Shown: one piece after another, positions 18,075 through 31,293 of the stretch
How positions within the stretch are numbered: position 1 is the stretch's first letter
Layout: each line of letters opens with the position of its first letter
Assembly: GCA_937129345.1 (NCBI GenBank)
Contig: CAKZMZ010000513.1
Coordinates: 1 to 32,243, forward strand
Direction of reading: 5' to 3'
Source: an uncultured Thalassovita sp.
Lineage (GTDB): Bacteria > Bacteroidota > Bacteroidia > Cytophagales > Flammeovirgaceae
Length of the DNA: 32,243 bases
Notes under the pieces: generated by a model
Database searches by the model: none
What the model was told of the DNA's origin: nothing
What the model saw: the letters and a program-made list of their open reading frames with translations, nothing else
Made by a program: the position numbers and the translations under genes

Positions 18075-20522
18075 TTATGCAAGCGGAGGCACAAAATTGG
18101 GTTTCCTGGCACTTAGAGTACTGTTTAAAATGCTGTTTGCCCGTTTTTTTATCCTTCCATCTGAACCAGCATCCATAGCGATTTGCTGTAAAACTTCTCT
18201 ATCATCTATCTGCTGTAAAGCACCTGGCGAAGCAATGCCCCTTCTGCTAGCCACTTTTTCTATGGCCGACCTAAATATGTCACGGGTTTTATTGATCCAC
18301 TGGTTTACGGTTAAATCGACCACTAAACCACAGCCCATCGGCGAACTCACAATCCGATTTAGAAAAACATCCTTCAAACGCAGTCGGTTGGTTTTTATAT
18401 CGGTTTTAATACTCATGGCAGGCCTTACGTAACCGATTGCCGCCCTTTCTAATTGCGCCGAATAAAAAGCCGGATGGTGAGCAGCTCTTATAAAAGCACC
18501 ATACAATTGCTTATCAGACTTTAAGGCGATCTCTGCATCTATGCCTTCTGTTTGGTGCTTACCAGTAACTGCGTGCAGATCGTATACTTTAAGGTTGCCG
18601 TCATGAATTTGACCGTTGCGCAGAATAATATCCACATCAATACCTATTTTTTGAAAATACTCAGCAAATAATTGAGGATGTTTTTGCTTCATGGTAGCGA
18701 TAACAGCGCCTAAAGATCCGTTGGTATTTCCGCCTTTACCCGCAAACTGTATAAAACCCCAAGAAAAATTGGCTTTGTCATAGGTATTTATGGCATCGAA
18801 ACAGCCCTCGTGACTCGATACATATTTTAGCGCTAGGGCCATATTTTCATCCAGCCCCAGATCTGAGAAAACCTTAACGGGTACATCGGGCATAAAACTA
18901 CCCTTGTAGCCTATGCCTTGGTAAAATTCGTTAAAACTGCTTCTTACAAAATTGTTAAATTGAGCCGTAATAAACCGGCCTTGCATGGTAGGATGTGGAA
19001 CCACTAGGGTATATTCTGCATACTCTCTTAATAACTTGTGGGTTAGATCATTGGGCGAAACCACACCTCTTGTAAATGCTGATGTGCCCAGCATAGACCT
19101 AAATCTAGAGTTGGCCCAATACTCTACCCTATATTTGGTCTGGAAACGCTCTAACGCCTGTACCGTTCTCGGTATGCTGCCTTGACCTATTGGCGATCTG
19201 CCCAAACGCGACATCAACACGCTAGGAGACTCGCCATGGTTAGGATTGAGCAACCTCAATTGAATTAAGCGATTCTGTACTTTTTCTAAATCTGATGGAT
19301 TGTTATTAAAAACCTTTCCCACCGTACCCTGCAGGCCAGTTCCCATAATATCTTCTCCACTTGTTTCCTGCAACTCAAACACGCTTCTTGCCTTTGCAAT
19401 TTCGCCTGCTTGCCCGCTTTGGTAAGAGGGCACCGGCTTTTTCTTGGCAGAGGGTATCAGTAACTGCTGACCCACATATAAGCCTCCCCCACTTAACTTA
19501 TTAAGTCTAACAATTTCTTCGGGAGATGTACCAAACTGATCGGCAATTTTGGCCAACCAATCGCCACGCTTTACCGTGTAGGTTTGAAAGTTGGCATTGG
19601 CACGGGGCGGATTTATATCTGGCGCTTTTACTCTTAGCATTTGCCCTATGTAAATGGTGGCATTGGGCGCCAAATCGTTTAAGGCTAGAATTTGCTGCGG
19701 TGTAGTGCCGAAGCGCTGCGCAATGGCGTATAAAGAATCGCCCCTTTTTACCGTATAAACATCGGTATTTGCGTTGCCTGTAGAGGGCTTAAAATCTGGC
19801 GCAGGAGCCGGAGTGGTTGACGATGGCCTCACCTTTATCTTTTGGCCAATATAAATTCTGCTTTGTGTATTAAGGTTATTGAGTTGGAGCAGGTATTGTG
19901 GCGTTGTATTGTACTGCTGCGCAATCGAGTAAAGAGAATCTCCTCTTTGAACGGTATGATAATCGGGCGTTTCATTTTGCTGCCCTCCTTGTGGCCCTCC
20001 CGAAACAATCAGTCTTTGGCCAGGATAAATATTTGAGGAGGCACTCATACCATTGAGTTGCTGAATTGTCTCAGGTTTGGTACCAAAACGCCGTGCAATT
20101 GAATATAGCGAATCACCTGTTTTTACTGTATAGTATCGTACATTGCCTGTAACGCTACTAACCTTTGGAATTTCGGTATTGCCAGAAAGGCGCGATTCTT
20201 CCCTAACTTTTAACTGCTGACCTATGTAAATTGACTGATTTGCGCTCAGCCCGTTCAATAAAAGCAAGCGCTGTGGTGTAGTATTGAATCTTTTTGCAAT
20301 AGAATATAAAGAATCGCCCCTCCTAACCGCATAATATTCTGCGCCTCCACTAGAACTACCACCTTTTGAGCTATTGCCATTTTTTGCCACAATAAGACTT
20401 TGCCCGGGATGTATTGGGTCGTAAGGTTTTAAATTATTGAGCGATAAAATTTGGGTGGTACTTAAATCGTATTGCTTACCAATGCTATACAGCGTTTCGC
20501 CAGGTTGTACTACGTGTATCAT
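18075..20522 (-). CDS. Six-LysM protein with a lysozyme-like C-terminal region
   Basis: Six LysM modules (about residues 2-46, 62-107, 129-173, 187-231, 255-299 and 313-357), each with a V-x-x-G-D/E-x-L-Y-x-I core, should bind N-acetylglucosamine polymers such as peptidoglycan. Low-complexity Ser/Gly/Pro linkers separate them. The remaining 450 residues include YVSSHEGCFDAINTYDKANF and SWGFIQFAG. This Glu...Ser-x-Gly-x-x-Gln pattern resembles lysozyme-like hydrolases, with Glu572 a possible catalytic acid. The protein starts directly with a LysM module. An in-frame TAA lies 15 bp before the ATG with no other start between, so it has no Sec signal peptide. It also lacks a T9SS C-terminal domain. 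Export, if any, uses another route or cell lysis. LysM call firm; the enzyme call is moderate. Confidence 0.88.
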   Translation of the reverse strand: MIHVVQPGETLYSIGKQYDLSTTQILSLNNLKPYDPIHPGQSLIVAKNGNSSKGGSSSGGAEYYAVRRGDSLYSIAKRFNTTPQRLLLLNGLSANQSIYIGQQLKVREESRLSGNTEIPKVSSVTGNVRYYTVKTGDSLYSIARRFGTKPETIQQLNGMSASSNIYPGQRLIVSGGPQGGQQNETPDYHTVQRGDSLYSIAQQYNTTPQYLLQLNNLNTQSRIYIGQKIKVRPSSTTPAPAPDFKPSTGNANTDVYTVKRGDSLYAIAQRFGTTPQQILALNDLAPNATIYIGQMLRVKAPDINPPRANANFQTYTVKRGDWLAKIADQFGTSPEEIVRLNKLSGGGLYVGQQLLIPSAKKKPVPSYQSGQAGEIAKARSVFELQETSGEDIMGTGLQGTVGKVFNNNPSDLEKVQNRLIQLRLLNPNHGESPSVLMSRLGRSPIGQGSIPRTVQALERFQTKYRVEYWANSRFRSMLGTSAFTRGVVSPNDLTHKLLREYAEYTLVVPHPTMQGRFITAQFNNFVRSSFNEFYQGIGYKGSFMPDVPVKVFSDLGLDENMALALKYVSSHEGCFDAINTYDKANFSWGFIQFAGKGGNTNGSLGAVIATMKQKHPQLFAEYFQKIGIDVDIILRNGQIHDGNLKVYDLHAVTGKHQTEGIDAEIALKSDKQLYGAFIRAAHHPAFYSAQLERAAIGYVRPAMSIKTDIKTNRLRLKDVFLNRIVSSPMGCGLVVDLTVNQWINKTRDIFRSAIEKVASRRGIASPGALQQIDDREVLQQIAMDAGSDGRIKKRANSILNSTLSARKPNFVPPLA

Positions 20523-20942: not shown

Positions 20943-22199
20943 TCAATTCCCGCCCTGCGAAAGGTAACTTTGGTATTGCCTGAAACTTTTATCTATGGCC
21001 TGAAACAACAGTTCGCCTTGCAATGCGTAACCCCTGCCCGTAAAATGCAGCTTATCTCTTTGTGCCAATCCGTTCCTGTACCATTCATTTATTGACTGAA
21101 AACCTCCCATGACATCATACAAATCCCATACGGCCAAACCCATTTCTCGGGCTACTTCAAAAATGGCTTGCCTAGCCTTTTCGTTGTTTTTATTGGGGTA
21201 GCGCCTACGGCGATAATTGTCTGCAGGAGTAGTGAGCAAAATAGCAGTTTGTGGTGAAACACGCTGTACCTTATCTACCAAAATACGCAGGTTGGTTTTG
21301 TACTGTTTTTCATCAAAAGCATACATGTAGGCATCATTGGTGCCCAAAGAAATGATCATTAAATCTGGCTCGAGTATTTCGGCGTGCTTTTCAAAATCTC
21401 TACATCTAAAATAGCTGTTAACATCGGCAGAATTTACTCCTGAAGCGCTGTAAACAACGCCCGGGGCTGTATTTTCCAATGTTACGCCTTGCAATACAAA
21501 TTTACTTTGCTCATCGCGGTTTTTGTTGACCACCAATTCTACCGCGGTTTGTGGCTTTCTAAAAGTAAATTCCACAAAGCCATCTCCTACAAAATATCCC
21601 GAAACAGAATTACCCGCACTTAGCTTTGGCACTATATCGAAAGAAGCAGGGTCGGTATTCGGGTAAAATACCTTTACTTTTTTTACATTATAAGAGAAAT
21701 CATCCACATTAGGATGCAAGGAAACCGTGCTGCCCGCTTGGTAGGTTTCTAGGCTAATTCCACTAATGCCCCAACGGCTCGCATCTCTATTTTTTACACT
21801 GCGCTTACCCGACCATGTTCTCGAAAAAAAAGTTTTGTAATTGTAAGGATTGTTCGTCCTTGCCGCACTGTAGGGAAAAACAAAACCTCTTGCCGACATA
21901 GGAAAACGCTTATCCTCTAAAAACTTTTCTCTGACCTTTCCAGAAAACATATCGGCCTGTATATGGGAGTCGCCTAAATGGAAAATATGCACTTGGCAAT
22001 CTTTTCGGTTTTCTAGCCTGTTCAACTTTCCAAAAAAAGACTGTAGGGCATCTGGCTGGAAGTACAGCAATTGGTTCTGATCATAATTGACAAATCCGTA
22101 GTCTAGATACCACAGGTCAGATTTTTGAGCTTGGCCTAGACCAATATTGCTCAAACTCAACAAACCGAGCAAGATCAGATGTACTGCTTTTATTTTCAT
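20943..22199 (-). CDS. Exported SGNH/GDSL hydrolase family protein
   Basis: This 418-residue protein has a signal peptide (about residues 1-24, ending near GLGQAQ) and an SGNH fold. The nucleophile is Ser78 in FHLGDSHIQAD. The oxyanion residues are in LMIISLGTNDAYMY. The catalytic Asp382 and His385 are in RDKLHFTGRGYA. Periplasmic SGNH proteins commonly remove or add acyl groups on polysaccharides or peptidoglycan. In many Bacteroidota, tandem genes of this kind accompany an MBOAT membrane acyltransferase, but none is present here. The gene follows its longer relative by 38 bp on the same strand, so the two are probably co-transcribed and may work together. All catalytic residues are present; the substrate is unknown. 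Confidence 0.88.
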   Translation of the reverse strand: MKIKAVHLILLGLLSLSNIGLGQAQKSDLWYLDYGFVNYDQNQLLYFQPDALQSFFGKLNRLENRKDCQVHIFHLGDSHIQADMFSGKVREKFLEDKRFPMSARGFVFPYSAARTNNPYNYKTFFSRTWSGKRSVKNRDASRWGISGISLETYQAGSTVSLHPNVDDFSYNVKKVKVFYPNTDPASFDIVPKLSAGNSVSGYFVGDGFVEFTFRKPQTAVELVVNKNRDEQSKFVLQGVTLENTAPGVVYSASGVNSADVNSYFRCRDFEKHAEILEPDLMIISLGTNDAYMYAFDEKQYKTNLRILVDKVQRVSPQTAILLTTPADNYRRRRYPNKNNEKARQAIFEVAREMGLAVWDLYDVMGGFQSINEWYRNGLAQRDKLHFTGRGYALQGELLFQAIDKSFRQYQSYLSQGGN

Positions 22200-22237
22200 A
22201 TAAATGTTTTAAACTTTCTCAATACAATTGCTTACCC

Positions 22238-23713
22238 CTATTGTACAATGGTGCGCTGCTTATATTCTTCGTAGGCCCTCATTAACTCTGAATACATCAT
22301 TTCGGCAACCAACCTTGCCCCTCTTGGTGTAAAATGTGTGTAGTCTGTATGGCCCATAGGGGGTTCTGCATTCACCCAACTCACCATGGAGTTTTCGCCG
22401 CCCATAGCTTCGTACAAATCCCAAAAAGCGCAACCTGCCTCAAAAGCCGCCGCTTTTTGGGCGTCTCGCACCAATTTTACATTAGGGTAACTTTCGTACT
22501 CGGTGCCTTCTTTTCTAGACATGTCCGAAACGCCTACAACCAAAATATCGAGTTCTGGATCCAAAGATTTTAGGTATTTCAATTGCTTTGAAAATGAATA
22601 GCGATAGAAACCGTAATCGTCACGCACATTAGGAATGACATTTACACCATACTGTACAATCAAGAATTTAACATTGAGCTTTTTAATTTGCTCTTTGTAA
22701 AAATTTCTGCTGATTTGGGTAAATGCCAGTCCGGAACTGCCTCGCATAGCTATGTTGTCTAAAGCGATGCCCCGTTGACAATCGAAAGCAACGCCGTACA
22801 AATCAGGAGACCCACTACTCGCAAACTCAAATACCGCTTTTTGAAAGTTGCCATTTAACTTGTATTTGTGCATGCCAAAATCGTTGGTAGTCGGTAAATC
22901 TTCTGAAGCTAACTTGCTACCATTCAATGTTAGTGACACGTTTAAAGGTGCTCTTCTGTTCCTGTAAAGTAGAGTAATTTCTTCAACCGCATTAAATCGC
23001 TTATAAGTTTTCGTGTTGCGCAAAAAACGCGACCAAGCCTTGTAGGGTGGTGGTGGTTTTTCTTCGTGATCATAAAGAGCGAAATAATGTCCTAATAAGC
23101 CATAATTTTTATGGGTCGGTTGTTTGCGCTCAGCACCGTAAGTAGAATACCGCACCCAATTTTCACTGGTTTTTTGCCAAAGAGTGGCGCTAATGTCATT
23201 TACAATCATAAGCGGGGCCAAGCCAATACCACAACCACCAAACCGCTTTTGGAAACGGTTTCTTAGATAATCGCTAATGCGGTCGCCTTCTAGCTGAGAG
23301 TCGCCATAATGTAAAATCCTTATCAATTCGTTTTTACCTGAAAGTTCTCTCAAAGAAGCAAAAAAGTTATCTAGTGCTTTCTCGTTGCCTGCAGGATACT
23401 GTATGGGCACTTTAAAATCTCTTAGCTTTTCAGAGACATCTTCTTGGTAATTTACCTGCTTAGTCACTTCGGTGTCTACTTCCTCTTCTTGCGTTTCGGT
23501 CTCTTCTTCTTTCTTCACAAGAGATCCCTCTAAAGCTATAATGTTGGTGATATCTGCTTGCTTTACAGGTTGGCCAAAGGCATCGTCAAAGTCAAAAATC
23601 TTAAACTCTGACAGCAATGGCAAAGACACATTGCCAGGAGATAAGAGCATGATGATACCTGACATGCAGCCTACATAAAAAAGAATTAAGAAAAGTCTTG
23701 AAGGCTTAACCAT
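22238..23713 (-). CDS. Membrane-anchored or exported SGNH hydrolase-like protein
   Basis: This 491-residue protein has an N-terminal hydrophobic segment (about residues 7-28) that may be a signal peptide or an anchor. A Glu/Thr/Val-rich linker follows (around EETETQEEEVDTE). The SGNH domain has the nucleophile Ser139 in HYGDSQLEGDR and the pair Asp457/His460 in TDYTHFTPRG. The third block reads IVQYGVNVIPN, not the usual G-x-N-D; the Asn is kept. It is upstream of, and distantly related to, the next SGNH gene, and they should form one operon. A likely role is in acyl transfer to or removal from an envelope glycan, by analogy with AlgJ/AlgX/PatB-type proteins. That is an inference. Confidence 0.85.
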   Translation of the reverse strand: MVKPSRLFLILFYVGCMSGIIMLLSPGNVSLPLLSEFKIFDFDDAFGQPVKQADITNIIALEGSLVKKEEETETQEEEVDTEVTKQVNYQEDVSEKLRDFKVPIQYPAGNEKALDNFFASLRELSGKNELIRILHYGDSQLEGDRISDYLRNRFQKRFGGCGIGLAPLMIVNDISATLWQKTSENWVRYSTYGAERKQPTHKNYGLLGHYFALYDHEEKPPPPYKAWSRFLRNTKTYKRFNAVEEITLLYRNRRAPLNVSLTLNGSKLASEDLPTTNDFGMHKYKLNGNFQKAVFEFASSGSPDLYGVAFDCQRGIALDNIAMRGSSGLAFTQISRNFYKEQIKKLNVKFLIVQYGVNVIPNVRDDYGFYRYSFSKQLKYLKSLDPELDILVVGVSDMSRKEGTEYESYPNVKLVRDAQKAAAFEAGCAFWDLYEAMGGENSMVSWVNAEPPMGHTDYTHFTPRGARLVAEMMYSELMRAYEEYKQRTIVQ

Positions 23714-25811: not shown

Positions 25812-26099
25812 TTAGGGATTATCAAGAAGACCTTTCAGTTTTTTATTGATCCCATCTACGAGTTTTTCTTGTTGCTCTTTCTTCTCCAATTCTTTCAACT
25901 TTTCAACTTCAGCATCAAAAGCGACCATGGCCAATAGGTCTTGCTTGTCTTGTATCCTCATTTGTTCTTTGCGTAGTTTTAATTTACTTTCTATAGCCTT
26001 TGCCGCTTTCCTAAGGATGGCTTCTTCCTCAGGTTTTATCTTGAGAGAATAGGTTCTGTCTGCAATTTTTATTTTTATGAAAAAATCATTCATAAACAT
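25812..26099 (-). CDS. zapA: Cell division protein ZapA
   Basis: ZapA binds FtsZ and bundles its filaments, stabilising the division ring. The 95-residue protein has the ZapA N-terminal block FFIKIKIADRTYSLKIKPEEE, here clear from IKIADRTYSLKI, then the helix EEAILRKAAKAIESKL and a C-terminal coiled coil. The first strand is typical and the length is normal. Two ATG codons are possible (26099 and 26093), differing by two residues. The gene lies 10 bp after the coiled-coil gene, so they form an operon. Confidence 0.9.
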   Translation of the reverse strand: MFMNDFFIKIKIADRTYSLKIKPEEEAILRKAAKAIESKLKLRKEQMRIQDKQDLLAMVAFDAEVEKLKELEKKEQQEKLVDGINKKLKGLLDNP

Positions 26100-26109
26100 G
26101 AATAGACTA

Positions 26110-26412
26110 CTAAACTTCCCTGCTCAGGTAAGCCAAGCAGTTATCTATTTCCTTTATATATTCATCAATTTTAGTCCTGAGTTCATCAGCACTTAAATCA
26201 TCTACTGCCAAGTATTGTACAATCTTACTAATTTTTGCCTTATATTGAAAGTCATTTAACTGGTGATTTTTCTCTTCGAGCAAAGATTTTAGTTTTTTGT
26301 TCTCTTCAGTAAGCGCTGCATAATCCGCCTGCAGCAGTTGAAACTTGTTCAACAACTCATCCACATGGGCCGCTAACTCTTCTAGCTTATCTGTTTTATT
26401 GTTAGAATCCAT
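26110..26412 (-). CDS. Small coiled-coil protein, ZapB-like
   Basis: This 100-residue protein is one long coiled coil for about residues 8-60 (LEELAAHVDELLNKFQLLQ, then EENKKLKSLLEEK). A short helical C-terminal part contains DDLSADELRTKIDEYIKE. It precedes zapA by 10 bp. In Bacteroidota a gene of this shape usually precedes zapA, and ZapB is the coiled-coil partner of ZapA in proteobacteria. The division role is inferred from position and shape, since coiled coils resemble each other without common descent. Confidence 0.75.
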   Translation of the reverse strand: MDSNNKTDKLEELAAHVDELLNKFQLLQADYAALTEENKKLKSLLEEKNHQLNDFQYKAKISKIVQYLAVDDLSADELRTKIDEYIKEIDNCLAYLSREV

Positions 26413-26920: not shown

Positions 26921-27967
26921 ATGAAAGATATAAGAGTAACTTTACCTATCGTAAAGCAGGAAGGAATGCCTGTTCGCATCAGATTTGGACTAGATCACTT
27001 TGCTTGGGAAACCGCCAAAGGTATGGTGTACTATACCTTTAATAAATGGTTGATGGCCAGCACCATTATCTTAACATTTGCCTTGGTCTACATGATCAAA
27101 CACAAACCTGAAGAAATTACCCGAGTGTACAACCTCATCCATAAAGATGGTAAATTTTCAGATGCCTCAGGCAAGGTACATGAAGTGGAGTTTCCCATAC
27201 AATCTTTCTCAGAAATGCAAAATGTAGAGGGGAAACAGGGGCATGAGGCAAAACCCACCTCAGCGGTACGCTCTAGTTTTATGGAAGAAAAGCATCAATT
27301 GATTTACAGATACAAAACTTCCTTTGAGGTCAACAGAACTGAACAGCTGCCCATAGAAGCCCTGTTGCAACTCAATAAGGAAATAAGTGCGCTTTATCTT
27401 GAAAAAGTATTACCTACCGCTACTAAAGATACCAAAATATTGTCTTTTTTTAGCGATAACGAGTCAATTTATAAAATAGAAACCGCATTAATGGAGCAGG
27501 CAAAATACCATATTCCCGCTTCTATAAAATTGGCCTCTGCGGCTTTGGCCACCAATTATGGCCAAGAAGTTTTCAATAATAATTACTTTAACATTAGAGA
27601 TAAGGAGAACAAAAATACGGAGCGTATCGCAACAGAATACTTAACTAAAGAGCAGGTAATAAAGTATAAAAAATTCATTATCTCTCACGAACCTGTAAGA
27701 GCAGAACCTTCTTTGTTTGCCTGTAAAATTAGACAGACCTTTAAGGAATACTATTCACCTTGGGCATCTTTTAGAGACCATTCTCTTTACCTGACAAAAA
27801 ACAGAAGGTTTGCCCCACTCTTTACCTTAGGAAATAGCTATAAAAAGTGGGCGGCAAAACTGGGCAACCCTCTAAAAGGTGGCTTGGGCTACAGCACCGA
27901 TCCTAATTACAAAATAGCCATTGTTCAAATAATAGAAAAATTCCATCTTGATCTTTTAGACCACTGA
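26921..27967 (+). CDS. GH73-like glucosaminidase paralogue lacking the catalytic Glu
   Basis: This 348-residue protein has a short cytoplasmic N-terminus, one membrane helix (about residues 44-59) and a C-terminal glucosaminidase-type domain (about residues 180-345). Related domains cut N-acetylglucosaminyl bonds in peptidoglycan. The core block IPASIKLASAALATNYGQ aligns with the next gene's VPASIKLAQSALETGYG. The presumed catalytic Glu is replaced by Ala210 (GCC at 27548-27550). The rest of the fold is kept, including NNNYFNIRDK, WASFRDHSLYL and GLGYSTDPNYK. It is probably inactive and may bind glycan or help its paralogue. The two genes are tandem, 72 bp apart. Confidence 0.87.
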   Translation: MKDIRVTLPIVKQEGMPVRIRFGLDHFAWETAKGMVYYTFNKWLMASTIILTFALVYMIKHKPEEITRVYNLIHKDGKFSDASGKVHEVEFPIQSFSEMQNVEGKQGHEAKPTSAVRSSFMEEKHQLIYRYKTSFEVNRTEQLPIEALLQLNKEISALYLEKVLPTATKDTKILSFFSDNESIYKIETALMEQAKYHIPASIKLASAALATNYGQEVFNNNYFNIRDKENKNTERIATEYLTKEQVIKYKKFIISHEPVRAEPSLFACKIRQTFKEYYSPWASFRDHSLYLTKNRRFAPLFTLGNSYKKWAAKLGNPLKGGLGYSTDPNYKIAIVQIIEKFHLDLLDH

Positions 27968-28039
27968 TCCCCTATAATCCAACAAAGCACAAAATCATTC
28001 TTTACACATCTTTTTCATCTAATAAATGGAGCCAAGGTC

Positions 28040-29152
28040 ATGAAACCCCAACTTAGATTTAAACTTCCGCTAATTTCTTTTAGAAATAAACCTGTATTTT
28101 TTGGACTAAAAGGCAATGCATTTTATGGAGAATTTGACAATGGCAAGTCTATGTTTATTTTCCATAGCAATGTGCTCATAGCCATTATCTGCCTCATCCC
28201 TTTTATGATTCTTTTTTTTGGGGAAAGACCTCAGCACATTAAAAACGTATATACTTTGGTACAGGGTGATGTTGAACAACTCCCTAAGGGTTTTGAGTTT
28301 GAAGAATATGGCCCCAACTCCCAAAAGTTTAGAGAGGACAAACAAGCCCCACTTGCAGAGCCTGAAGAAGAACCCGATTTTCTTTTTGAAGAAGAGCTAG
28401 AAGCTGTTGAAAACGAGCTTTTTCACCAAACATCTTATCACGAGAGCAAGAGAGCACAATTTATCAAAGAGCGAGAGAAAATCATCTATCAATTTAAAAA
28501 GAAGTACAACATCTGGAAAAATGAAGAGATGAGCAATGAGATGCTTACCGCAATGAACAAGAAAATCTCTCAACTATTTATAAAAATTATTTTAGACCAA
28601 AGCAAGGTAGAAAAACATGTGTACCGCTTTTTTACTGATAATGAAGAATTATATAAAATTGAGACAGCTTTAATGGAACAGGCCAAATACCATGTGCCCG
28701 CTTCTATAAAATTGGCACAGTCGGCATTGGAAACAGGCTATGGCAAAAGAGTGATCAACAATAATTTTTTTGGCATAAAAGATAAAAAGGGCAATACCCC
28801 CCTGAGCATAACCACCGAATATTACAATGACCATGAGCTTAAAAGAAACCGAAGAAAAGTGATCTCTAAAAAGAAGGTCTTTAAAAATGGTAAATACTTT
28901 TGGCAGTGCAGGGTAAGAGACCATTTTATTTCTTACAATACCGCTTGGGAGTCTTTTAGAGACCATTCTAGATTTTTGCTTGAAAATGAACGCTACCACC
29001 CATTATTTACAGGCGGTAAAAATTACCAAGCCTGGGCAGATAAGATTGGTTCTACAAAATACGGTGGCGTTGGGTATGCCACTTCTCCACTGTATGGAAA
29101 ATTGTTAAAAGGCATTATCCGCAGGTATCACTTAGACTTGCTTGACTATTAA
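28040..29152 (+). CDS. Membrane-anchored GH73-like glucosaminidase
   Basis: This 370-residue paralogue of the preceding gene has the same layout: about 43 N-terminal residues, a membrane helix (about residues 44-60), an acidic stretch (EPEEEPDFLFEEELEAVE), and a C-terminal glucosaminidase domain. The active-site block VPASIKLAQSALETGYG keeps Glu231, matching the catalytic Glu of GH73 enzymes in the A-L-E-S/T-G-x-G motif. NNNFFGIKDKKG, AWESFRDHSRFL and GGVGYATSPLYG are also typical. It should cleave peptidoglycan glycan strands on the periplasmic side. The shared membrane topology and adjacency suggest the two act as a pair. The gene converges on the sigma-factor operon with 31 bp between. Confidence 0.9.
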   Translation: MKPQLRFKLPLISFRNKPVFFGLKGNAFYGEFDNGKSMFIFHSNVLIAIICLIPFMILFFGERPQHIKNVYTLVQGDVEQLPKGFEFEEYGPNSQKFREDKQAPLAEPEEEPDFLFEEELEAVENELFHQTSYHESKRAQFIKEREKIIYQFKKKYNIWKNEEMSNEMLTAMNKKISQLFIKIILDQSKVEKHVYRFFTDNEELYKIETALMEQAKYHVPASIKLAQSALETGYGKRVINNNFFGIKDKKGNTPLSITTEYYNDHELKRNRRKVISKKKVFKNGKYFWQCRVRDHFISYNTAWESFRDHSRFLLENERYHPLFTGGKNYQAWADKIGSTKYGGVGYATSPLYGKLLKGIIRRYHLDLLDY

Positions 29153-29183: not shown

Positions 29184-30686
29184 TCACCTTCCAAAATTAT
29201 ATCTCAGCCTTAATCCTGTAGAGTTGATAGGAATATTTTCTTGACCCATGCTTAAAATAGGTATGCTCCAAAATGGCTCAATGCCTACAGAGGAGTGCAA
29301 CCCAACGGCTTTCTCCATACCAACCGAAAGAGTAATGGTACTGAAAAGGTCTATATGCTCGAAGGCACCATAAGTTACTTCTTCGTTGACAATGCTTAGC
29401 TTTCTAATATTAGATTGCGTAGGCAATTGAAATTTCTCTTTTTCATACTCGTATCTTTCAGACAAATAAAAATAAGAAGAAGCCGCAGCACCTATATAAA
29501 AGCGCCTATTTACATTGGTAGAGATATAGTAATTTAGTTGAATGGGGATTTCTATGGCAGAGAGGTGCGCTGTGGTAGTTACAAGGTCTGTCATTTCTTG
29601 TGTGCTCTCTACAAAACTATTGATAGAGTTGGCACTAAAACCAGGAAAGGCGGCAGTAGAAAAAGATGCCTCGTCTTGTTGCCCAAACCTAGACTGATCG
29701 GGAAAAGCCTTTCCGTGCATCTGCTTAAAAATAAAGCCACTTGCAATTACGATTTTTTCACTCAGCGAATAATTTGCTGTGAAACCTAACCCAAAACCAA
29801 CTTCCCGATAGTTGTTTACTCTATTATTTTGGTTTAGAAAACCCTCTGCCAAAATGCTAAAATAAAACCTATCCAAACCTTTAATGCCTTTAGACATACC
29901 CATAGTCATGGGGACAAGGCTAGACTCGACTTTACCTACGCTATCTAAATAAAGTGGCTTATTTTTTAGTATGACATTTTCTGTGGCGAAATTATCAGTG
30001 GCGAAAATTTTGGAGCTTTTAGACTCTCGCAAAATGGATTCATCTTCGCTGTTTGCCGCCTCTTCTTGATTGGTTACAAAATTTCCGGAGGTATTTACAG
30101 TAGCAATATTTTCTTCTTCAGTAGCTGCACTTGTATTTACACTTTCCTTGTCTTCTATGCTTTCTCTAGTTGTGTCGCTTGTTTTTTCTACTTCAGTTTC
30201 ACTTATTTTCTTTTCTCGCAAGGCAAGCTGTTCCTTGCTTTTAATTTCTGAGTCTTTTGTATCGGTACTCTCGTTTACAAAACTATTGCGTTTTAAAACA
30301 GAAGCCGTTTGTAATTCTTTATTAGTATCGTCAGCTCTGGTATTTTCTTCATCATTTACATCTGCCAACATCTGTTGTTGACTGTTAAAGCCCGAGGAAT
30401 CTGCTCCACTTCTTAAATTACTCTTCTCTGTTTGCCTGCTGTTTACAACACTTTGATCCAATTCTCTCAATTGAGTGGTAAGTGTAGCATCGCCTAAAGG
30501 CAAATAAGCCAATGTAACCAAAAACAATGCAGTGCAAGCGGCCAAAATCCACCTAGAATAATTTTTTGGCGTTCTGCCGAGACGTTTCTGCATGTCGGCC
30601 CAATGCCCCGCATCATAAGGGGGCTCATAGGCTTCCATCTCTTGCCTTATTTTATCTGCAAGCCGCTTATCGAACTGTTCTTGCAT
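29184..30686 (-). CDS. Anti-sigma-like membrane protein with a beta-barrel-like C-terminus
   Basis: This 500-residue protein is encoded right after an ECF sigma factor and overlaps it by 20 bp. Residues 1-45 are cytoplasmic, charged and helical (DKRLADKIRQEMEAYEP, GHWADMQKRL). One membrane helix follows (about residues 46-64). About 190 residues of Ser/Thr/Glu/Asn/Lys-rich, probably disordered linker come next. The C-terminal 240 residues alternate in an outer-membrane-barrel-like pattern (VGFGLGFTANYSLSEKIVIASG, AAASSYFYLSERYE, GLRLRYNFGR) and end in an aromatic/charged strand. The position next to the sigma gene and the N-terminal layout suggest it holds the sigma factor at the inner membrane, with the distal end sensing the envelope. 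There is no zinc-binding anti-sigma motif. Role inferred. Confidence 0.75.
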   Translation of the reverse strand: MQEQFDKRLADKIRQEMEAYEPPYDAGHWADMQKRLGRTPKNYSRWILAACTALFLVTLAYLPLGDATLTTQLRELDQSVVNSRQTEKSNLRSGADSSGFNSQQQMLADVNDEENTRADDTNKELQTASVLKRNSFVNESTDTKDSEIKSKEQLALREKKISETEVEKTSDTTRESIEDKESVNTSAATEEENIATVNTSGNFVTNQEEAANSEDESILRESKSSKIFATDNFATENVILKNKPLYLDSVGKVESSLVPMTMGMSKGIKGLDRFYFSILAEGFLNQNNRVNNYREVGFGLGFTANYSLSEKIVIASGFIFKQMHGKAFPDQSRFGQQDEASFSTAAFPGFSANSINSFVESTQEMTDLVTTTAHLSAIEIPIQLNYYISTNVNRRFYIGAAASSYFYLSERYEYEKEKFQLPTQSNIRKLSIVNEEVTYGAFEHIDLFSTITLSVGMEKAVGLHSSVGIEPFWSIPILSMGQENIPINSTGLRLRYNFGR

Positions 30687-31293
30687 AATTTTTTTGATAT
30701 AAGTGTTTTACCATTTCCCTTAGTTTTTGCTTTGCCCTTGTTAGGTTTGAGCGCGAAGTACCTTCGGGAATATCCATCATTTCTCCTATTTCTTTGTGGG
30801 AATAACCTTCAATCTCGTAAAGGTTAAAAACCATTCTGTAGTGCGTGGGCAACTCCTGTAACAAATCCAAAATCTCTTCTGCCGTAAGTCTGTCTACTAT
30901 ATCAAAATCGTAGGTTTTCTCTTCTGCGGCGCTTATTTCAGAACTCTGCTGATACTTCTTATTTGCCCTGTAATAGTCTATAGAAGTGTTGATAACGATT
31001 CTTCTAAGCCAAGCCCTAAAAGAACGGCTAAAGTCGTATTTATCAAGTCGGGTAAAGACCTTAAAAAAGCTCTCGTTCAAAATTTCGGCAGATTCGTTTT
31101 TAGAATTGGAATAGCGCAAGGCCACAGACATAGCATACCCATAAAAGTGTTTGTACAACTTTTCTTGGGCAGATGCCTTATTCTTGAGGCAACCTTTTAA
31201 GATTGTGAGTTCTTTTTCTGTAAGCCCGTGCTGCAAAGTAGTCTCAGTATTTAATTCAATTTCCCAGTCACCCTTTAAAATCAATGCATCCAA
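30667..31293 (-). CDS. ECF-type RNA polymerase sigma factor
   Basis: This 208-residue protein has sigma-70 regions 2 and 4. Region 2 covers about residues 40-110 and includes AEILNESFFKVFTRLDKYD and SFRAWLRRIVINTSIDYYR. Region 4 covers about residues 140-190 and includes ELPTHYRMVFNLYEIEGYSHKEIGEMM and PEGTSRSNLTRAKQKLRE. ECF factors direct RNA polymerase to stress or envelope genes and are held by a membrane partner, here probably the overlapping downstream gene. No ATG fits the start: the first internal Met is inside region 2. TTG codons at 31293, 31284 or 31236 are the candidates. The last would start the protein near the usual ECF N-terminus. Confidence 0.93.
   Translation of the reverse strand: MDALILKGDWEIELNTETTLQHGLTEKELTILKGCLKNKASAQEKLYKHFYGYAMSVALRYSNSKNESAEILNESFFKVFTRLDKYDFSRSFRAWLRRIVINTSIDYYRANKKYQQSSEISAAEEKTYDFDIVDRLTAEEILDLLQELPTHYRMVFNLYEIEGYSHKEIGEMMDIPEGTSRSNLTRAKQKLREMVKHLYQKNYARTVR

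Follow-up and report, generated by a model that had tools for sequence, protein, structure and literature searches.

Glucosaminidases cause cell lysis when they are unrestrained, and their control in Bacteroidota is little known. Dead hydrolase domains serve as regulators in other families; EnvC and NlpD carry degenerate LytM/M23 domains and activate amidases. In Staphylococcus aureus, the membrane-anchored GH73 enzyme SagB acts together with the membrane protein SpdC, a partner which is thought to control it.

We have analyzed a DNA stretch of 32,243 nucleotides from a marine bacterium (the window) harboring two genes for paralogous GH73 proteins, P0001 and P0002, oriented in the same direction (Table 1). 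Its sequence makes it very probable that P0001 is a pseudoenzyme which has been conserved beside an active-type sister. The pair resembles SagB and SpdC in that an anchored GH73 enzyme has a candidate membrane partner controlling its activity; SpdC, however, is not a GH73 paralogue, whereas the candidate partner found here is the enzyme's own disarmed copy. With EnvC and NlpD the locus shares a catalytically dead peptidoglycan-hydrolase domain retained as a regulator, a role for which P0001 is a candidate, and a member that appears dead by sequence has been kept by selection beside one that appears live. In contrast, EnvC and NlpD have the M23 endopeptidase fold and activate enzymes of another family, whereas the dead and live members described here are tandem paralogues; the only Pfam match of the pair was to PF01832, and no LytM/M23 domain was found.

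Among enzymes of the same family, FlgJ, AtlA of E. faecalis, Auto, and TM0633 share the fold, the ALExG position, the second Glu of the β-hairpin, and a YATD-type region, all of which are present in P0002. P0001 differs from them by Ala in place of the general acid and by a changed Lys, and in both proteins of the pair, unlike in these enzymes, a single transmembrane pass and a helical hairpin precede the domain. The same exchange of Glu to Ala at the same place is present in the structures 3k3t (E185A FlgJ of Sphingomonas) and 4pi8 (E138A AtlE), but these are laboratory mutants, while the change in P0001 is natural and conserved. A GH73 pseudoenzyme was not found in the open-access literature searched, a scope that leaves out most subscription journals; likewise, the earlier note on this DNA knew of none described for the family.

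Architecture and surroundings of the tandem pair

The earlier note had described tandem GH73 paralogues of shared topology separated by 72 bp, and both the open reading frames and the gap proved exact. Both proteins scored above the curated PF01832 cut-off of 30.2 bits, and hydropathy analysis revealed one transmembrane segment in each at about residues 43-61; a second hydrophobic segment was not found in P0001. AlphaFold2 models (mean pLDDT 82 for P0001, with the GH73 part mostly above 90, and 76 for P0002) predicted a common order of N-terminal meander, transmembrane helix, linker, helical hairpin, and GH73 domain, the meander and the linker being of low confidence in both. The model of P0002 contains four N-terminal strands at a place equivalent to those of P0001 and a helical hairpin as in P0001.

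The P0001 model matched AtlA (7qfu) with a Z-score of 19.4 and 2.0 Å over 146 residues, and its lysozyme-like GH73 fold was also recognized in comparison with 3fi7 (Z 16.3), 5dn5 (Z 13.5), and the Sphingomonas FlgJ mutant structure 3k3t. For P0002, Foldseek gave a probability of 1.00 to AtlA, Auto, and FlgJ (7qfu, 3fi7, 5dn5).

Table 1. Positions of the tandem pair, its residues and neighbors in the window, and of further GH73 proteins without the catalytic Glu at other loci
Feature	Position	Strand	Basis
P0001, 348 aa, membrane-anchored GH73-fold pseudo-glucosaminidase (putative)	26921..27967	+	PF01832 68.4 bits, AF2, structural match
P0001 N-terminal stretch, residues 1-41, predicted four-strand β-meander, presumed cytoplasmic	26921..27043	+	DSSP of model, pLDDT about 57-68, low confidence
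P0001 single TM helix, about residues 42-61	27044..27103	+	hydropathy mean 1.46, helix 42-60 in model
P0001 helical hairpin preceding GH73 domain, residues 114-167	27260..27421	+	helices 114-134 and 145-167, high pLDDT
P0001 GH73-fold domain, residues 171-348	27431..27964	+	PF01832 and structural matches
P0001 Ala210 codon GCC, general-acid position	27548..27550	+	Ala in all 4 orthologues, Glu in each of 28 active-type relatives
P0001 Arg226 codon, position of FlgJ Lys207 / AtlA Lys232	27596..27598	+	R,R,E,E across P0001 and its orthologues
P0001 Glu239 codon, second β-hairpin Glu (FlgJ Glu223 equivalent)	27635..27637	+	alignment
Intergenic gap P0001/P0002, 72 bp	27968..28039	.	
P0002, 370 aa, membrane-anchored GH73, catalytic residues intact	28040..29152	+	PF01832 85.2 bits, AF2, Foldseek
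P0002 Glu231 codon GAA, general acid	28730..28732	+	aligned with FlgJ/TM0633 ALE(S/T)GWG
P0002 Glu260 codon, second catalytic Glu of the β-hairpin	28817..28819	+	TTEY motif vs FlgJ TTEY
Convergent neighbor: N-terminal part, one hydrophobic stretch, linker, outer-membrane β-barrel; resembles Dma anti-sigma factors	29184..30686	-	OMP_b-brl_2 match below cut-off
ECF sigma factor beside β-barrel gene	30667..31293	-	PF08281/PF04542, TIGR02937
Second family of anchored GH73-like proteins	L114:2708-3538 (-), L115:1614-2486 (+), L116:7812-8741 (-), L117:57-920 (-), L118:7110-7895 (-)		
Saprospiraceae-type Glu-less GH73 (Q, H, L, N or Y)	L103:5590-6363, L108:5638-6354, L110:251-985, L113:5632-6387, L161:1498-2253		

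In the three other genomes with the pair the intergenic gap measured 68, 144, and 148 bp; a Bacteroidota -7 box was not recognized in the 72-bp gap of the window, and a shared promoter signal was not found. On the 3′ side, the pair is followed in both genera by the convergent β-barrel gene and the ECF sigma factor gene, and then by a lipoamide acyltransferase gene. The β-barrel gene lies next to the pair at each of the four loci. In a further genome (G002) a single active GH73 gene adjoins matching sigma factor and barrel genes, and the placement beside a GH73 gene is kept in three genera. A phage origin of the pair was considered and rejected, as the evidence amounted to a single weak match to a phage lysin and two remote ones to viral contigs.

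Other genes of the window were also noted. In this genus, a ZapA cell-division gene and a gene for a coiled-coil-like protein of 100 aa (25812-26412) precede the pair in divergent orientation; Flexithrix lacks this arrangement. A protein of 815 aa with many LysM domains, probably binding to the cell wall, is encoded at 18075-20522. Two tandem genes at 20943-23713 encode GDSL-type esterases, both with Ser and DxxH; the upstream one has GVNV for GxND in block III.

Catalytic site and substrate cleft

The alignment of P0001 with P0002 is free of gaps through the catalytic block and places Ala210 opposite Glu231; both codons are exactly where the earlier note had read them. The Glu231 site corresponds to Glu184 of StFlgJ, the general acid of this enzyme (PMC4752226), and replacement of this Glu by Ala leads to inactivity of AtlA, AtlE, AtlWM, AcmA, LytB, SpFlgJ, StFlgJ, Auto, TM0633, and AcpCD (PMC7170848). 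Glu at this site had been called the established general acid of GH73 enzymes, and this assignment holds, as does the presence of Ala in P0001 when the pair is aligned with FlgJ and TM0633. The description of the surrounding frame as otherwise conserved holds for the gap-free block only in part: in P0001 the motif reads ALATNYG, with Gly exchanged for Asn beside the site, and FGIK has become FNIR. The active-site set of P0002 is complete and comprises Glu231, Glu260, Lys247, and the YAT(D/S) region (Tyr346-Ala-Thr-Ser); with these residues intact, P0002 is by its sequence an active-type enzyme.

Changes in P0001 are not restricted to the general acid. The Lys which holds the β-hairpin is replaced by Arg226; in AtlA the corresponding K232 is catalytically important, and its mutant keeps only a few per cent of residual activity (PMC9108991). 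Across P0001 and its three orthologues (the pseudo proteins), N,S,K,Q occur at the nearby Gly245 site and T,T,A,S at the site of Thr326 in the YATD region; Tyr324 of this region and Asn220/Asn221 are retained in all four. A replacement acid was sought in the four GH73 domains, and the only shared acids were at positions 181, 187, 192, and 347, none of them catalytic. Hence, the catalytic positions have gained no other conserved acid, the presence of which the earlier note had named as fatal to its proposal.

Because an exchange of Glu to Ala at the general acid is established to inactivate GH73 enzymes, P0001 should not cut, and catalysis by known means is very unlikely. P0001 might still hydrolyze peptidoglycan by its β-hairpin Glu239 or by another acid; this Glu is kept in three of the four pseudo proteins, and substrate-assisted catalysis has been proposed for some GH73 enzymes (PMC4752226). 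We consider this improbable, however: the Glu of the helical lobe is a common requirement in the GH73 enzymes tested (PMC7170848), the second Glu is also gone in Flexithrix, where it is Val, no new acid is conserved, and two of the proteins have Glu at the Lys position.

Binding of glycan by P0001 is possible. PDB entry 4pi8 represents, according to its title, E138A AtlE with NAG-NAM; hence, binding may survive without the acid. The cleft erosion is milder in the P0001 copy of the window, and Flexithrix and its relative have lost further positions contacting the substrate, which weakens the glycan-binding version; as a conserved role in the Flexithrix genus, binding is therefore less likely.

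Conservation, phylogeny, and selection

The tandem pair was identified in four assemblies from two genera of Flammeovirgaceae, namely in the window, in another genome of its genus (PBYL01000235), in the isolate Flexithrix dorotheae DSM 6795, and in a bin from Flammeovirgaceae. PBYL01000235.1 (L037) belongs to a public bin labelled Thalassovita (Alphaproteobacteria), a label that looks wrong for this Flammeovirgaceae locus. The survey of Cytophagales suggested by the earlier note covered 390 genomes of the order, and a search with a profile of the pseudo proteins scored above 600 bits only for the four of the pair, the next best match reaching 296 bits. All four upstream genes encode Ala at the site (ALATNYG, VIATNYG, AIATSFG, AIATDFG; codons GCC or GCT), and all four downstream genes encode Glu, always as GAA; Glu is also present in all 28 active-type relatives of the alignment. 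Hence, the Ala is not unique to this genome, and the proposed tandem pair of an active-type and an inactive-type protein with shared topology, as judged by sequence, extends to two genera with Ala fixed upstream and Glu downstream. The four pseudo proteins share 103 columns without any variation, which makes the constancy of Ala alone modest evidence.

The genome of the window is a metagenome bin in 653 contigs, and Ala might thus have arisen as an error of sequencing or assembly. This is extremely improbable and was rejected, since three other assemblies including an isolate carry Ala, specified by two different codons.

Phylogenetic analysis of 54 proteins placed the pseudo copies in one clade (99/97) and their partners in another (100/98), both nested inside the anchored GH73 group of Flammeovirgaceae. 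The simplest reading is one duplication of a GH73 gene and a single loss of Glu, both predating the separation of the two genera. For Flexithrix and its relative, comparison of the pseudo genes showed 81% protein identity with dN 0.12, and the resulting dN/dS of about 0.06 is a value for this one pair at a dS near 2, i.e. close to saturation, YN00 being saturated for most pairs; it indicates strong purifying selection.

Divergence is faster in the pseudo proteins than in the partners by a factor of about 2.4 (path in the tree 2.5 vs 1.02 changes per column), as would be expected if P0001 were a decaying duplicate without function. We regard such decay as quite improbable, however, because the reading frame has stayed open in all four species from both genera, dN/dS is low, and many residues as well as the gene order are kept. 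P0001 is thus highly likely to be a protein that does not cut but is functional.

Conservation differs along the pseudo proteins. Between the genera, conservation is only 14% for the transmembrane segments and 21% for the helical hairpins, and identity in the β-lobe is 19%; the low values for segment and hairpin leave these parts without an obvious conserved interaction surface. Within each genus, the N-terminal stretch is well preserved (0.71 and 0.90). A relaxation specific to the β-lobe was rejected. Between the pseudo proteins of Flexithrix and its relative the lobe does differ more than the remaining domain (Fisher p 0.004), but this part is the least conserved one in the active partner too, and between genera pseudo and active divergence stand in about the same ratio (1.9) inside and outside the lobe.

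Candidate role of P0001 and further Glu-less GH73 proteins

The best explanation overall, to which we assign a probability of about 0.5, is that P0001 is a conserved pseudo-glucosaminidase retained upstream of its intact sister, which it positions or restrains. A membrane-anchored GH73 gene would have been duplicated before the split of the two Flammeovirgaceae genera; the upstream copy would have lost its general acid once and been kept since as a folded, membrane-anchored, non-cutting protein directly 5′ of the intact gene. P0001 and P0002 would then be made together, held in the inner membrane by the same kind of anchor, and may associate through the parts they share, i.e. the helical hairpin or the GH73 core, so that P0001 could position or restrain P0002.

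The same topology, the shared hairpin, the conserved adjacency, and the selection point to such a companion role. Adjacency and shared architecture fit the idea of a heteromer without proving it, and adjacency could also result from duplication alone; moreover, the pair is present in only four genomes of two genera. Formation of a heteromer or regulation of cutting by P0001, as originally suggested for this pair, is plausible, and the chance that the actual job of P0001 is that of a partner acting on P0002 is a little less than even.

The main rival holds that P0001 works by itself, independently of P0002, as a binder, anchor, or sensor for peptidoglycan, with the GH73 domain holding glycan and the N-terminal part reading out or tethering in the cytoplasm. 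The NAG-NAM complex of the E138A autolysin, the retained Tyr324 and Asn220/Asn221, and the conservation of the N-terminal stretch within the genera agree with it; against it stand the eroding cleft at the Lys, Gly245, Thr326, and Glu239 sites, the divergent β-lobe, and the constant location of P0001 beside an active gene. We consider such a function somewhat unlikely, though a serious alternative to the positioning or restraining of P0002.

GH73 proteins without the catalytic Glu were also found elsewhere. A second, more diverged family of anchored GH73-like proteins, present in the pair genomes and G002, lacks the β-lobe and carries Q,Q,S,S,K in place of Glu; its genes are always divergent from a conserved gene of 351-387 aa without a Pfam match over cut-off. 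Of the copies scanned with PF01832, that of the window genome passed, that of Flexithrix fell just short, and that of G002 gave no match. Anchored GH73 proteins of Saprospiraceae have Q,H,L,N at this site and a further genome of the class has Y; both copies scanned (L103 and L161) passed PF01832. Among sampled Bacteroidia loci, a sample ranked by profile score and not random, 33 of 34 GH73 proteins have Glu, the exception being Y. Loss of Glu was thus rare overall and confined to membrane-anchored forms among the proteins examined. With the disarmed tandem copy as an obligate regulatory partner and two other Glu-less groups, one in Flammeovirgaceae and one in Saprospiraceae, anchored pseudo-glucosaminidases might form a class of cell-wall regulators that recurs in Flammeovirgaceae and in Bacteroidota more widely, a generalization we regard as speculative and rather unlikely.

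A match to PF01832 does not equal activity, as several membrane-anchored GH73 groups found here are without the catalytic Glu. A natural and conserved copy with Glu exchanged for Ala beside a live-type enzyme, present in the isolate Flexithrix dorotheae, would provide a direct handle on the control of glucosaminidases.
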